Shown piece after piece: positions 57,815 to 62,590 of a stretch of DNA of 64,000 nucleotides. The stretch's first letter is position 1, and each line of letters begins with the position of its first letter. The notes below the pieces were generated by a model, which made no database searches, had not been told where the DNA came from, and saw nothing but the letters and a program-made list of their open reading frames with translations. The stretch comes from Croceivirga lutea (GTDB lineage Bacteria; Bacteroidota; Bacteroidia; Flavobacteriales; Flavobacteriaceae). The stretch is taken from the NCBI RefSeq assembly GCF_014235875.1, contig NZ_JACJUK010000003.1, forward strand, positions 62,001 through 126,000, given 5' to 3'. A program made the translations under genes and the position numbers.

Positions 57815-59887
57815 ATGTCGCAGAACAATCCTTCTAGATATACCATTACCGCTGCTTTGCCATACACCAACGGCCCCATTCATATTGGGCATTTAGCTGG
57901 CGTATACGTACCCGCAGATATTTACGCACGTTATCAGCGCTTGCAAGGTAAAGACGTCGCTTTTATTTGTGGTAGTGATGAGCATGGCGTAGCAATACCC
58001 ATGAAAGCGAAAAAAGAAGGTGTTTCGCCACAAGAAATTATAGATAAGTATCACACAATTATTAAAGATTCCTTTACGGAATTTGGGATTAGTTTTGATA
58101 ATTATTCTAGAACGTCTGCACCAATTCACCATGAAACTGCGTCTGATTTCTTTAAAAAATTATACGAACAAGGGGATTTTATAGAAGAAACTACCGAGCA
58201 GTTGTTTGATGCAGAAGCCAACCAATTTCTAGCAGACCGTTTTGTTACCGGTACCTGCCCTAAGTGCGGTAATCCAGAAGCGTATGGCGACCAGTGCGAA
58301 AATTGTGGCACATCTTTAAACGCTACGGATTTAATCAATCCAAAATCAACCATTTCTGGAGCAGTTCCCACTCTAAAAGAGACCAAACATTGGTTTTTGC
58401 CCCTAGACCGGTATGAAGACTTTTTAAAAGAATGGATTCTTAAAGGTCATAAGAAAGATTGGAAACCCAATGTATACGGGCAGTGTAAATCTTGGATAGA
58501 CGATGGCTTAAAACCCCGTGCGGTTACCAGAGATTTGGATTGGGGTATTCCCGTTCCAGTACCCGGTGCAGATGGCAAAGTATTGTACGTTTGGTTTGAT
58601 GCCCCTATTGGCTATATCTCTTCTACCAAAGAATGGGCTGCTAGGGAAAATAAAGAATGGGAGCCCTACTGGAAAGACCAAGACACCAAAATGTTGCATT
58701 TTATTGGGAAAGATAACATTGTCTTTCACTGTATTATCTTCCCAAGTATGCTTAAAGCACATGGCGATTTTATTTTACCAGAGAATGTACCGGCAAACGA
58801 ATTTTTGAATTTGGAAGGCAACAAATTATCCACTTCTAAAAATTGGGCGGTTTGGTTGCACGAGTATTTACAAGAATTCCCAGACATGCAAGATGTGTTG
58901 CGTTATACCTTAACTGCAAACGCACCAGAGACCAAGGATAACGATTTTACGTGGAAAGATTTTCAAGCTCGCAATAACAACGAGTTGGTAGCCATTTTTG
59001 GCAACTTTATTAACCGTGTAGCCGTATTAACACACAAATATTACAACGGCGTGGTGCCTACCCCTTCAGAATTTACTGAATTAGATTCGCAAACCTTAAA
59101 AACCATGCGTACCTATCCGCAAATCTTAACCGATTCTTTGGAGCGTTACCGTTTTAGAGAAGCGAGCCAAGAATTAATGAATTTAGCCCGTTTGGGGAAC
59201 AAATATTTGGCAGATGAGGAACCTTGGAAATTAATAAAGACCGATGAAGCCCGTACCCAAACCATAATGTACGTAGCGCTACAGATAGCTTCTGCACTTG
59301 CCATATTGAGTGAACCTTTCTTGCCTTTTACTTCCGCTAAATTAAAAGGCATACTTGGTATTAATTCAAGCGAAAACTCGCTAGATTGGAAAGACATTAG
59401 TTCAAAAGAAGTTTTACTTGCCGATGGCCAGACTATAAATAAAAGCGAACTACTTTTCCGTAAAATAGAAGACAAAGAAATAGAAGCCCAATTGGAAAAA
59501 TTAGAAGCCACCAAACTAAGTAACGCCAGCACCAATGCCGATGCTGCGCCTCAGAAAGAAACCATCACCTATGAAGAATTTACCAAATTAGACATTCGGG
59601 TTGGGACCATTTTAGCGGCAGAAAAAATGCCAAAGGCAGATAAATTATTGGTGCTTAAAGTAGATACAGGTATAGATGTGCGCACTATTGTTTCTGGTAT
59701 TGCACAAAGTTTTAAGCCAGAAGACATTGTAGGTAAAAAGGTAACAGTATTGGTGAATTTAGCGCCAAGAAAATTAAGAGGTGTAGAAAGCCAAGGCATG
59801 ATTTTAATGACGGAAAACACGGATAACAAATTGGTTTTCGTAAACCCAGATGAAGATGGGGTTGCCAATGGGGAGGGAATTAGTTAG
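57815..59887 (+). CDS. metG: Methionyl-tRNA synthetase
   Basis: Charges initiator and elongator tRNA-Met with methionine. The 690-residue class I enzyme has the HIGH motif in '[11 protein letters not shown]', a zinc knuckle [17 protein letters not shown], and the KMSKS-equivalent KLSTSKN. The C-terminal EMAP/Arc1p-type tRNA-binding domain covers about residues 580-690 ('[20 protein letters not shown]', 'SQGMILMTE'). The full long form with a dimerisation/tRNA-binding extension is normal for Bacteroidota. No T-box or SAM riboswitch was seen upstream. Confidence 0.97.
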
Positions 59888-59960
59888 CACATAGCCGCGC
59901 TTTAATTTTCTAATTACTAATTGATTGCAGGGGAGAGTAAAAAACACCTATACTTATTTA

Positions 59961-59985
59961 GGTCTCGACTGCGCTCGACCTGACA
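59961..59985 (+). repeat. Palindromic repeat copy 1 (TCTCGACTGCGCTCGA core)
   Basis: The 25-base element contains the core TCTCGACTGCGCTCGA followed by CCTGACA. The CGAC/CTCGA arms make it partly self-complementary. Two more copies occur at 60371-60394 (opposite orientation) and 60419-60443 (same orientation). It lies 35 bases upstream of a GIY-YIG nuclease gene. Confidence 0.85.
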
Positions 59986-60019
59986 ATTAATTAAAGGTGA
60001 ACACTAGGCCAAAAAAGTT

Positions 60020-60331
60020 ATGTTTAGTTACTATGTTTACATATTACTTTGCTCCGATGGACTAACCTACACCGGCATTACAAATGATATTGCTAGGCGA
60101 TTAATTGAACACCAAAATGGTCTAAACCCGAATAGCTTTACATTTAAACGAAGACCGGTAAAACTTATTTTTAAACAAGAATTCAATCATGTTCTTGAAG
60201 CTATATTTTTTGAAAAGAAAATCAAGAAATGGAGCGCAAAGAAAAAGTTAGCATTAGCAAATGGTGATTTTGACCTTTTACAAATTTTATCTGAATGTAG
60301 AAATGCTACGCATTCAAAGTACAATTCGTAA
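60020..60331 (+). CDS. GIY-YIG nuclease family protein (UvrC/URI-type)
   Basis: A 103-residue stand-alone GIY-YIG endonuclease domain. The motif YYVYILLCSDGLTYTGIT supplies the two catalytic Tyr strands. 'DIARRLIEHQNG' contains the catalytic Arg, and 'EFNHVLEAIFFEKKIKKWSAKKKLAL' holds the Glu metal ligand. Such short URI-type proteins are common in Bacteroidota and of uncertain role. The gene is enclosed by palindromic repeats (59961, 60371, 60419) shared with nothing else in the window. It may therefore be part of a repeat-nuclease element. Confidence 0.85.
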   Translation: MFSYYVYILLCSDGLTYTGITNDIARRLIEHQNGLNPNSFTFKRRPVKLIFKQEFNHVLEAIFFEKKIKKWSAKKKLALANGDFDLLQILSECRNATHSKYNS

Positions 60332-60370
60332 TATTTTAATTTATCATCGAAAAATATCAACTTGTGATAA

Positions 60371-60394
60371 TGTCACCTCGAGCGCAGTCGAGAG
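60371..60394 (-). repeat. Palindromic repeat copy 2 (inverted)
   Basis: Reads TGTCACCTCGAGCGCAGTCG AGAG on the plus strand. Its reverse complement contains the same TCTCGACTGCGCTCGA core as copies 1 and 3, with a GGTGACA end instead of CCTGACA. It begins 40 bases after the GIY-YIG stop. Confidence 0.85.
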
Positions 60395-60418
60395 TTTAAA
60401 ATACTTGATATTAAACAA

Positions 60419-60443
60419 GGTCTCGACTGCGCTCGACCTGACA
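60419..60443 (+). repeat. Palindromic repeat copy 3
   Basis: Identical over 25 bases to copy 1 at 59961. Together with the inverted copy at 60371-60394 it can form a ~23-base stem with two mismatches and a 24-base loop. It ends 20 bases before the tex start codon. Confidence 0.88.
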
Positions 60444-60463: not shown

Positions 60464-62590
60464 ATGAACGCAATCCAATTCATCACCCAAAACACCCAAC
60501 TAGACAGCAAAAGCGTAGCCAACACCGTAAGTCTTCTAGATGAAGATTGTACCGTACCCTTTATAGCCCGTTATCGCAAAGAACGTACAGATAATTTAGA
60601 CGAGTTGCAAATTGGTGAAATTGTAAAGTTTAAAGAAGCTTTTGAAGCCCTAGAGAAACGTAAGGCTACCATTTTAAAAGCTATAGAAGAGCAAGATGCT
60701 TTAACATCAGAACTAAAAACTAAAATAGACCAAACAGTAGACACCACGGTCTTGGAAGATATTTACCTTCCCTTTAAGAAAAGTAGAAAAACCAAGGCAG
60801 AAAAAGCGCGTAAAAATGGATTAGAGCCTTTGGCAAAAATCATCATGGCGCAGCGCACTACAGATTTGGACTTTACCTCGGGTAAATACACAAACGCAAA
60901 TGTACCAAACGAGAATGCTGCTTTAGAAGGCGCAAGACATATTATTGCAGAATGGATTAATGAGCGTACAGATATTCGCAACCAGATAAGGACGCAGTTA
61001 GAAAAATTTGCCCAGTTAGAAACTAAGGTAATCGGCACAAAAAAAGATGATGAAAAGGCGCAGAAATACCAAGATTATTTTGATTGGAACGAGTCCCTTT
61101 CCCGCTGTCCATCGCACCGATTGCTAGCCATACTTCGTGCGGAGAGCGAAGGGTTTATTCGCGTTAAAATCAGTATTGATGACGACCATGCCTTGGATAG
61201 AATAGACCGAAAGGTTATTAAAAGTAACAATGCCTGTGCAGACCAGATAGCCATGGCGGTAGAAGATGCGTATAAACGATTGCTACTACCTTCTTTATCC
61301 AACGAAATTTTAAAGCAAGCTAAAGTAAAAGCAGACGAGGCGGCCATTGCGGTATTCACCAAAAATTTAAGGCAATTACTTTTAGCCCCACCTTTAGGAG
61401 AGAAACGTATTTTAGCCATAGACCCTGGGTTTAGAACGGGTTGCAAATTGGTTTGTTTAGATGCCAATGGCAATCTGTTACATAACGAAACCATTTATCC
61501 GCATCCGCCACAAAAACAATTTAGGGAAGCTAGTAAAAAGATAGCTTCTTTAGTAGATGCCTATAAAATTGAAGCCATAGCCATTGGTAACGGTACTGCT
61601 TCTAGAGAAACTGAAAACTTTGTAAAAAACACCCCTTTTAAGCGCGATTTAGAAGTATTTGTGGTGAGTGAGGCTGGAGCCAGTATTTATTCTGCCTCTA
61701 AAATAGCTCGAGACGAGTTTCCAAATTACGATGTTACCGTACGTGGAGCCGTTTCTATAGGTAGGCGTTTAGCAGACCCCTTGGCAGAATTGGTTAAGAT
61801 TGATGCCAAAAGTATTGGTGTTGGACAATACCAACACGATGTGGACCAATCTAAATTAAAAACCGCCTTAGACACCGTGGTAGAAAGCTGTGTAAACTCG
61901 GTTGGGGTAAACGTAAACACGGCGAGTGAATCGCTTTTGAGTTATGTTTCTGGTATTGGTCCAAAACTAGCTGAAAATATAGTTAATCACAGAGCAGAAA
62001 ATGGGGCTTTTACTTCTAGAGAAGCAATAAAAAAAGTGCCTCGCTTAGGGGGTAAAGCTTTTGAACAAGCGGCTGGCTTTTTACGTATTCGTGATGCGGA
62101 AAATCCATTGGATGATTCGGCCGTACATCCAGAGAGTTATGGTATTGTAAAACAAATGGCAAAAGACCAAGGTGTTCCATTAACCAAGATTGTACGCAAT
62201 ACAGCAGTGCTAAAAAACATCAACCTAAAAAAATACCAAACGGAAACCATTGGTTTGCCAACCTTACAAGATATTCTTGAAGAGCTAGAAAAACCCGGAC
62301 TAGACCGAAGGGAAAAAGCCAAAGCTTTTACGTTTGACCAAAATATTAGAACTATAGAAGATTTAAGGTCAGGTCAATTGCTGCCCGGCATCGTTAACAA
62401 TATCACCAACTTTGGTTGTTTTGTAGATGTAGGTATAAAAGAAAGTGGGCTGATTCATGTTTCCAATTTATCTGATAGCTATGTGAGTGATGTCAATAGC
62501 ATTGTGAGCTTGCATCAACAGTTAATTGTAAAAGTTTTAGATGTGGATGTAAAACGAAAACGTATTCAATTAAAACTACACAAAGCATAA
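60464..62590 (+). CDS. tex: Tex family RNA-binding/transcription accessory protein
   Basis: A 708-residue Tex protein. Domain order: N-terminal helical region, YqgF/RNase H-like domain (about 315-450, 'ILAIDPGFRTGCKLVCLD'), helix-hairpin-helix domains (about 480-560, 'LLSYVSGIGPKLAENIVNHR'), and an S1 RNA-binding domain (about 630-706, 'GQLLPGIVNNITNFGCFVDVG'). It acts in the cytoplasm on RNA and transcription complexes. Only 20 bases lie between repeat copy 3 and its start, so the repeat could influence its leader. Confidence 0.94.
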   Translation: MNAIQFITQNTQLDSKSVANTVSLLDEDCTVPFIARYRKERTDNLDELQIGEIVKFKEAFEALEKRKATILKAIEEQDALTSELKTKIDQTVDTTVLEDIYLPFKKSRKTKAEKARKNGLEPLAKIIMAQRTTDLDFTSGKYTNANVPNENAALEGARHIIAEWINERTDIRNQIRTQLEKFAQLETKVIGTKKDDEKAQKYQDYFDWNESLSRCPSHRLLAILRAESEGFIRVKISIDDDHALDRIDRKVIKSNNACADQIAMAVEDAYKRLLLPSLSNEILKQAKVKADEAAIAVFTKNLRQLLLAPPLGEKRILAIDPGFRTGCKLVCLDANGNLLHNETIYPHPPQKQFREASKKIASLVDAYKIEAIAIGNGTASRETENFVKNTPFKRDLEVFVVSEAGASIYSASKIARDEFPNYDVTVRGAVSIGRRLADPLAELVKIDAKSIGVGQYQHDVDQSKLKTALDTVVESCVNSVGVNVNTASESLLSYVSGIGPKLAENIVNHRAENGAFTSREAIKKVPRLGGKAFEQAAGFLRIRDAENPLDDSAVHPESYGIVKQMAKDQGVPLTKIVRNTAVLKNINLKKYQTETIGLPTLQDILEELEKPGLDRREKAKAFTFDQNIRTIEDLRSGQLLPGIVNNITNFGCFVDVGIKESGLIHVSNLSDSYVSDVNSIVSLHQQLIVKVLDVDVKRKRIQLKLHKA

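Follow-up and report, generated by a model that had tools for sequence, protein, structure and literature searches.

Short GIY-YIG nuclease genes of particular bacterial lineages are associated with end-tagged palindromic repeats

The locus between metG and tex

The window, by which we mean the whole stretch of 64,000 nucleotides of Croceivirga lutea DNA that was analysed, carries a short GIY-YIG nuclease gene in the gap between metG and tex, and this gene stands between the first and the second of three copies of a short repeat (Table 1). A search of the window with the 16-base core of the repeat, TCTCGACTGCGCTCGA, gave exact matches at 59963 (+), 60378 (-) and 60421 (+), and every copy has the tag TGTCA at one of its ends. 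No fourth copy of TCTCGACTGCGCTCGA was found in the window, even when up to three mismatches were allowed. A chance origin of the three copies was rejected, because the mean expectation is 0.03 copies and three copies were never reached in 100 shuffles.

Table 1. Coordinates of the repeat copies, the nuclease gene and its neighbours in the window
Feature	Position	Strand	Remarks
metG, left neighbour	57815..59887	+	Pfam; context only
Degenerate left arm of upstream head-to-head pair (inferred)	59927..59937		GCAGGGGAGAG, compared with GCAGTCGAGA in relative G007
Repeat copy 1	59961..59985	+	GGTCTCGACTGCGCTCGACC plus tag TGACA (TGTCA on the opposite strand); tag toward the gene
Short GIY-YIG nuclease gene	60020..60331	+	103 aa; PF01541, 58.4 bits
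Repeat copy 2, inverted	60371..60395	-	tag TGTCA at left end; 16-base core exact; 4 of 25 positions unlike copies 1 and 3
REPIN-like head-to-head pair (copies 2 and 3, tags outside)	60371..60443		single long hairpin when folded
Repeat copy 3	60419..60443	+	identical to copy 1; tag TGACA at right end
tex, right neighbour	60464..62590	+	Pfam; context only

Folded as single-stranded DNA, copies 2 and 3 together gave one hairpin (-27 kcal/mol, z -9.8) that none of 200 shuffles equalled, whereas the fold of copy 1 alone was not above its shuffles, 82 of 200 being equally good. The strong palindrome is therefore the pair and not the single unit. A sequence-only reading of the window had described a 25-base element identical at 59961 and 60419, an inverted copy at 60371, a 103-residue GIY-YIG gene between copies 1 and 2, a long hairpin of copies 2 and 3 before tex, and no further copy in the window. 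All of this held except for the inverted copy, which held in part: the 16-base core and the TGTCA tag are retained in it, but with four differing positions it falls short of a full copy of 25 bases. What that reading missed is the degenerate partner arm of copy 1, which is visible only when the relative G007 is aligned; this arm is inferred from the alignment with the metG-tex site of G007 and is weak alone.

At up to one mismatch the source genome has four copies of the repeat, three at the window locus and one upstream of an argH-like gene (named by eye). The copy number away from the gene is thus a single copy, far below that of ordinary REPs. Other identities considered for the locus were rejected. 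A known RNA was excluded because the seven matches of an Rfam search (E up to 1) were every one far under the gathering score; for a phage gene, PHROGs gave one weak match of unknown function (E 0.0081); and for a defence gene, PADLOC gave no match. The GIY-YIG protein had no match in NCBIfam.

The nuclease protein

An active GIY-YIG site requires a small set of residues, and these (Y7, Y17, G19, R27, H31 and E65) were invariant in 24 homologues. A sequence search of solved structures gave the UPF0213 proteins 1zg2 (E 1.3e-10) and 1ywl (E 2.5e-10). The same two were nearest when a structure model of the window protein (pLDDT 87.6) was searched with Foldseek, with E values of 1.1e-5 and 8e-5. 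Slx1 was the next-nearest fold, at E of about 0.005 and above. These fold matches are moderate, with TM-scores of 0.5-0.6 and only two having E below 0.001. A codon comparison of five homologues gave pN of 0.12-0.27 and pS of 0.67-0.93, showing constraint on the nuclease protein, with synonymous sites close to saturation.

Close homologues and repeat copies in related genomes

Homologues and repeat copies were counted in 31 genomes, namely the source genome and 30 relatives. The exact core occurs 45 times, in 14 of the 31 genomes, and the reversed core pattern, used as a control, gave zero copies in the same set. Close homologues of the window nuclease are present in seven genomes at 66-100% identity, the next best having 55%, and each of the seven has an exact repeat copy at a distance of 18-93 bp from the matched stretch; in all, 13 copies lie this close, against 0.003 expected. 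Exact copies are present in 7 of the 24 genomes without a close homologue (Fisher 0.001; relatedness not corrected). Despite the near-saturated synonymous sites, the 16-base core is exact beside all seven homologues. This result has one qualification, that the exact core is retained on a single side in two genomes, the right in G015 and the left in G012. The gene neighbourhoods vary: the nuclease gene lies between metG and tex in the window, in a gap between transporter and carboxyltransferase genes in G002, G004, G008 and G009, in an aldehyde dehydrogenase-SDR gap in G015, and beside a LacI-like regulator in G012 (neighbour names other than metG and tex were assigned by eye).

The sequence-only reading had taken the locus for one local element, in which nuclease and repeat may form a dispersal or excision unit with the repeat as its substrate. 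It held that it would be refuted by repeat copies showing no enrichment beside GIY-YIG genes, or by close relatives carrying the nuclease without any repeat. Neither was the case, given that 13 of the 45 exact copies lie near the seven homologues and that none of the seven lacks one. That reading is supported, the repeat as substrate remains inference, and what we found instead of one local element is a widespread association that is specific to the nuclease type.

Head-to-head repeat pairs at 41-45 bp spacing occur elsewhere in G002 and G004. Pairs of the window type were also observed within an outer inverted repeat like GAGGCTGTCTAAAAAGTC...GACTTTTTAGACAGCCTC, forming a composite of about 110-140 bp, at L244, L245, L246, L248, L249, L252, L254, L255 and L015 (near position 1500). 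The nuclease copy of G004 (G004:C2:42325-42627) is decaying, with one in-frame stop.

A different repeat, GTCATTCCTGCG..GCAGGAATC, is present in the source genome in eight copies at up to one mismatch (C13:305875-324956 and C12:40389-48515), and no cognate nuclease was recognised for it there; three of these copies lie within a 410-bp tandem array of 3.1 units (L354:3855-5146). The genome G016 retains 24 copies of the GTCATTCCTGCG repeat, and the only GIY-YIG gene found for them is a decayed one with six in-frame stops (G016:C11:2676-2918). The second short GIY-YIG gene of the source genome (L005, on C16, at about 8.5 kb) lies between direct copies of another, longer repeat, GTCATTTCGAA...GAGAAATC, and by eye a similar GTCATTTCGA motif is seen in the flanks of its homologues in G006, G004 and G008. 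In the genus of the window, the short GIY-YIG genes of a small clade (GYCYILTNKN.TVLY.GAT; L034, L216, L217, L219 and L221) had matching flanks in none of five cases; some of these are probably orthologous.

Filled and empty sites

The comparison of the metG-tex site with related genomes, which the sequence-only reading had proposed, was run. The relative G007, whose tex is 88% identical to that of the window, has no homologue of the nuclease gene and carries, at this site (site 1), one degraded repeat pair ending in TGACA. At the same place the window has a pair, the gene and a second pair, the added DNA lying between two TGACA ends. Insertion into a repeat pair and deletion from one cannot be distinguished here. 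By eye, metG adjoins tex without a repeat in G002 and G008, and G004 and G010 have different DNA and no repeat; the remaining five genus members were unmatched at the site.

The second site, at the transporter flank, was located in all 11 genomes of the genus. It is filled in four, the gene being enclosed by one head-to-head pair whose tags point outward; the other seven have neither a GIY-YIG gene in the gap nor an exact core in the stretch that was fetched. By analogy, the repeats at site 2 would resemble the terminal inverted repeats of a gene-carrying element, and the gene-less pairs elsewhere would be its miniature forms. No target-site duplication could be defined; a third site, in G008, G002 and G004, was examined, and it was shared or unalignable.

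Matching flanks in the Bacteroidia

PF01541 was detected in 118 of 119 genomes of the class. From each of 40 genomes one locus with a short GIY-YIG gene was taken and the 250 bp on each side were compared; flanks were called matching at a left/right score of at least 18, a cut-off chosen after several had been printed. This sample and a 40-locus sample of the Pseudomonadota were chosen before the flanks were seen, going down score-ordered lists. The left and right flanks match at 30 of the 40 class loci, against 17 of 302 control ORFs from the same stretches, and eight of these 17 ORFs belong to a tandem array of the nuclease gene. Without the tandem-array locus the controls fall to 9 of 292, and to 3 of 57 when each side must have at least 100 bp of intergenic space. 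Ten of the 30 matching loci are beside tRNA genes (the other 30 sampled loci: none), so that the palindromic type accounts for 20 of the 40.

The matched repeats differ from gene to gene in the class. GTCA or its complement is present in the matched repeat of 49 of 63 palindromic-type loci (the class sample together with other class and relative loci), where shuffled segments gave an expectation of 26. A rigid stem-loop scan showed no excess in the class flanks (1.82 versus 1.76 per kb), probably because these repeats are bulged, and a 7-row alignment offered no stretch conserved enough for scanning. On a larger class tree the matching-flank label was clustered, with 27 changes against 39 in shuffles, although less cleanly than in the Pseudomonadota (below).

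Several loci were treated apart. The class-locus counts and tree left out L032, L038, L044, L056, L063, L100 and L102 as decayed, duplicate, contig-end or tandem-array loci (L056 duplicates L025 and L063 is cut by a contig end), and L220 was also left out of the tree. Genes with an in-frame stop (L021, L045, L208, L288 and L316) were cut at the first stop, and their downstream flanks therefore include gene remnant. Five of the 40 fetched short GIY-YIG genes (L091, L092, L099, L102 and L108) were observed less than 1 kb from a contig end, with no control; perhaps assemblies break at repeats, in which case copy numbers may be underestimates.

A group of short GIY-YIG genes beside tRNA genes

In a second group of short GIY-YIG genes, made up of 13 loci that had been picked for tRNA-like repeats or tree position (L037, L039, L076, L082, L084, L085, L097, L100, L103, L107, L111, L113 and L117), all 13 were observed to have a tRNA gene no more than about 130 bp away. 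Among 58 further loci of the class with short GIY-YIG genes, none showed such adjacency. The tRNA genes concerned are those for His, Val, Met, Asp, Leu, Glu, Arg and Ala, a piece of the tRNA gene is repeated on the far side of many of the GIY-YIG genes, and most of the loci cluster in one part of the tree. One of them (L100:3942-8583, in G137:C9) is a tandem array beside tRNA-Met, with a 457-bp unit in 10.2 copies at 99% matches, every unit of which holds a GIY-YIG gene.

Rhizobiales and CGTC-tagged repeats

Searches of plasmids found a GIY-YIG gene of Sinorhizobium pSymB between mosaic palindromes, which we take to be RIME-like, and GIY-YIG genes of Methylobacterium and Sphingomonas between other palindromes. 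The best 80 loci from 175 relatives were then compared, 79 of them Rhizobiales by title and some genomes being represented twice. Flanks match at 56 of the 80, against 2 of 719 control ORFs and 1 of 215 matched controls. Together with the matched controls of the class (3 of 57), this rejects generic REP-rich intergenic DNA as the cause of the matches.

Stem-loops of at least 8 bp are found at 7.33 per kb in these flanks and at 2.07 per kb in other intergenic DNA. The 584 ends of the 292 flank stem-loops include 118 with CGTC, 65 with CCTC and 164 with CTGG (the CCA-type or CCAG tail), whereas 432 stem-loop ends from other intergenic DNA include 18, 11 and 17 respectively. A tagged stem-loop is present on both sides at 47 of the 80 loci and at none of the 719 control ORFs, and on at least one side at 75 of the 80, with a single side in 51 of the 719 controls. 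Of the 47 two-sided loci, 44 have a symmetric orientation (28 with tags inward, 16 with tags outward) and three are mixed. The tagged repeats nearest to the gene ends lie at a median of 71 bp upstream and 49 bp downstream, and many of the copies dispersed in Rhizobiales genomes form inverted pairs about 82-85 bp apart (uncounted).

Pseudomonadota and lineage specificity

The phylum of Sinorhizobium was sampled with 150 genomes, 147 of which had a match. From these, 68 short genes were taken, one per genome (30 loci, less L282 and L292 near contig ends, and 40 fetched), with 20 uvrC genes as a control of the same fold. Matching flanks were found for 18 of the 68 short genes and none of the 20 uvrC genes. 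For the tree the truncated L288 was left out and 16 rows of the window's class were added. The matching-flank label follows this tree, requiring 8 changes where shuffles need 28: matching flanks occur in 17 of 19 members of one clade and 5 of 6 of another, whereas a YhbQ/YazA-like clade has them in 0 of 43, three members having a lone tagged stem-loop. The YhbQ/YazA-like clade was named by motif, and the tree is a quick one with few columns; because the proteins are short, many forks are unresolved.

Since the label tracks clades and is absent from the YhbQ/YazA-like clade, the association belongs to particular GIY-YIG lineages and not to the fold. That it might be a property of all GIY-YIG genes was rejected on the same counts (uvrC, 0 of 20; YhbQ/YazA-like clade, 0 of 43). 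Short GIY-YIG genes without matching flanks number 10 of 40 in the class, 24 of 80 in the Rhizobiales and 50 of 68 in the Pseudomonadota; these are partly whole clades (the YhbQ/YazA-like), but not all. At cut-offs of 14 and 25 the matches are 30 and 26 of 40, 58 and 55 of 80, and 19 and 16 of 68 for the three samples in the same order, and those of the controls are 10 and 5 of 292, 14 and 1 of 719, and for uvrC 0 and 0 of 20.

Repeat type follows nuclease type

Covariation was examined in 63 class loci with flanks matching at a score of at least 14, all 13 tRNA-side loci having been removed, and a repeat was taken as shared at a score of at least 16. Among cross-genus pairs with at least 60% protein identity, the repeat is common to 19 of 40. 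The figures are 32 of 373 at 50-60% identity, 34 of 867 at 40-50%, and 7 of 518 below 40%. Different nucleases (less than 50% identity) in the same genome share a repeat in 0 of 15 cases, the opposite of what a pure species signal would predict.

Two repeat families were counted genome-wide in 20 Rhizobiales genomes, whose flank types, assigned by reading the flank comparison, are nine A-type (ATTCCTGTG), eight B-type (CCGGA/CCGGC) and three neither. All nine A-type genomes contain family A and three of them family B; all eight B-type genomes contain family B and two of them family A. A family that is present has 3 to 150 dispersed copies per genome. The larger dispersed family is that of the flank type in 16 of the 17 typed genomes, the exception being L180. 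Related Rhizobiales genomes are not independent. More generally, the sampled loci are related and were selected from lists ranked by Pfam or BLAST score; the P values therefore overstate independence. These results show, without phylogenetic correction, that the repeat type tracks the nuclease type and not the genome.

Proposed system and rival explanations

We regard the association between nuclease and repeat as very likely real. It is likely, too, that the nuclease acts on the repeat; here binding and cutting are inferred. The best overall reading, which we think probable, is a REPtron-like system in which a GIY-YIG nuclease replaces the RAYT. The association itself, the tag, the symmetry, the covariation of nuclease and repeat, the presence or absence at two sites, the conserved catalytic residues and the constraint on the protein have been shown. 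Against this reading stand the many short GIY-YIG genes without matching flanks and the genomes that hold repeats without a cognate nuclease. The very low copy number in the source genome, the relatedness of the sampled loci, the lack of a definable target-site duplication, the absence of a stem-loop excess in the class flanks, the moderate fold matches, and the unlike stem and tail of the window repeat compared with the published CGTC families also count against it.

The proposed system would be widespread and have two parts, a small GIY-YIG nuclease and a family of short palindromic repeats tagged at one end, the tag being TGTCA at the window locus and, in Rhizobiales, CGTC or CCTC. A nuclease gene bordered by repeats would be the autonomous element, and the dispersed repeats, often in REPIN-like head-to-head pairs, its gene-less derivatives. 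In this view the nuclease would recognise the folded repeat pair, as a single-stranded hairpin or a cruciform, and would nick next to the tag, after which the unit may be deleted, copied or inserted by host replication and recombination repair. No covalent joining intermediate is known for GIY-YIG enzymes, and joining would thus fall to the host. No binding or cutting was observed; these, the cut site and insertion are inferred, and we think this mobilisation by nicking and host repair may equally well prove wrong as right.

A bolder reading has three parts, which we can neither endorse nor dismiss as a whole. GIY-YIG nucleases would be the missing dedicated enzymes of bacterial CGTC/TGTC-tagged palindromic repeats, each lineage driving its own repeat; they would act by structure-specific nicking and host repair, with no transposase and no covalent strand-transfer intermediate; and the system would be a second, convergent origin of REPtrons, with a sister GIY-YIG lineage acting similarly at tRNA genes. 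Many bacterial genomes contain scattered tagged palindromic repeats, and a candidate enzyme can now be named for several types of them, including the CGTC kind, which in 2013 was stated apparently to lack a dedicated transposase. If the reading is true, one genome architecture evolved twice, from nuclease folds that are unrelated to each other, and a mobile element can be driven by a repair-like nuclease with no need of transposase chemistry.

The rival that survives best, although we consider it unlikely, is homing. According to it the palindromes spread in some other way and the GIY-YIG gene merely uses them as insertion or homing sites, so that a filled site has the form pair-gene-pair and an empty one is a single pair. 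Site 1 fits, with one pair in G007 and pair-gene-pair in the window, the extra DNA lying between TGACA ends. The tRNA-side group, in many members of which a piece of the tRNA gene is repeated on the far side, likewise has the form target-gene-target, and the gene lies between inward-facing tags in 28 of the 80 Rhizobiales loci. At site 2, however, no prior repeat target is visible, since the fetched stretch of the seven gene-less genus members contains no exact core, and the gene is inside one pair with tags outward in four genomes, an arrangement (outward-outward) that recurs in 16 of the 80 Rhizobiales loci. Moreover, no other mobiliser of these repeats was found in the literature consulted, in which there are few, fortuitous transposases beside CGTC repeats (PMC3733652).

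A regulatory role, in which the palindromes serve the nuclease gene as terminators, operators or mRNA-stability elements and spread independently, is very unlikely. The closeness of the Rhizobiales tagged repeats to the gene ends (the medians of 71 and 49 bp) and the strong hairpin of the window pair speak for it, but it leaves unexplained the symmetric orientation (44 of 47), the dispersed copies distant from the gene, and the agreement of nuclease type with the larger dispersed family of the genome. Also very unlikely is hitch-hiking, in which REPs, being common between genes, gather around any transferred gene: up to 150 copies in some Rhizobiales genomes and the one-sided tagged stem-loops at 51 of 719 control ORFs are in its favour, but two-sided stem-loops are at 0 of 719 controls against 47 of 80 GIY-YIG loci, flanks match at only 1 of 215 matched controls, uvrC and the YhbQ/YazA-like clade have no matching flanks (0 of 20 and 0 of 43; the controls do not include other horizontally acquired small genes), and the repeat covaries with the nuclease type.

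Comparison with known systems

We compare the proposed REPtron-like system with what is already known. No earlier report linking GIY-YIG genes to palindromes or REPs was found in the open-access literature searched; preprints and most subscription journals were outside the search.

The short UPF0213/YhbQ/YazA GIY-YIG proteins (1zg2, 1ywl) have the size and fold of the window protein and are its closest solved structures in both sequence and fold, but those recognised as YhbQ/YazA-like form the separate clade of 43, which excludes it, and their genes lack matching flanks. Slx1 has a nearby fold and acts on branched DNA, a parallel for the cutting of hairpins or cruciforms, but it has no dispersed repeats. 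Slx1 works with a partner, Slx4, and carries further domains.

GIY-YIG homing genes move themselves by cutting DNA; PMC1564403 and, for SegB, PMC13096335 deal with such genes. Homing endonucleases such as I-TevI and the Seg family home into particular sites, and archetypal ones carry NUMOD-type extra domains (PMC1564403), whereas the window protein has little beyond the catalytic domain and its partner is a repeat family. Their architecture, a gene flanked by its own target, fits site 1 but not site 2. The RIME elements of rhizobia are comparable in that the pSymB GIY-YIG gene lies between RIME-like mosaic palindromes; the open-access literature searched gave no paper on rhizobial RIMEs, and no RIME-nuclease link was found.

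CGTC-tagged REPs have CGTC (or TGTC or CCTC) at one end of a stem-loop with an 8-9 bp stem, a 4-5 base loop and a CCA tail (PMC3733652). The study that described them takes in Neisseria dRS3, Rickettsia RPE and G. forsetii and recognises four families; it reported that they apparently lack a dedicated transposase, only few fortuitous cases having been met when transposase genes were sought beside them (Di Nocera et al. 2013, PMC3733652), and 'giy' is absent from its main text. The Rhizobiales repeats beside GIY-YIG genes are consistent with these REPs in tag, stem-loop, CCA-type tail and head-to-head pairing. The tag criterion is met by the CGTC/CCTC-enriched Rhizobiales flanks and by the TGTC of the window repeat. 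The latter differs in its TGTCA tag, its short imperfect stem and the absence of a CCA tail, and a single copy folds like its shuffles; we place it as a relative of the CGTC REPs outside the four published families. The GIY-YIG association would contradict the report that these repeats have no dedicated enzyme if it is functional, and function has not been shown.

The closest comparison is with the REP/RAYT (TnpA-REP) systems, REPtrons and REPINs, in which GTAG-tagged palindromes are tied to RAYT nucleases (PMC3733652). The enzyme there is an HUH/Y1 tyrosine transposase, whereas the window protein matches only the GIY-YIG family PF01541 and its model resembles UPF0213 and Slx1; the tag there is GTAG, as against TGTCA at the window and CGTC/CCTC in Rhizobiales, and cleavage at these two kinds of tag is only inferred. 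The analogy with REP/RAYT, already drawn in the sequence-only reading, holds for the anatomy: in both, a small nuclease-like gene is flanked by short tagged palindromes, and these are dispersed, often as head-to-head pairs, with few genes and more repeats.
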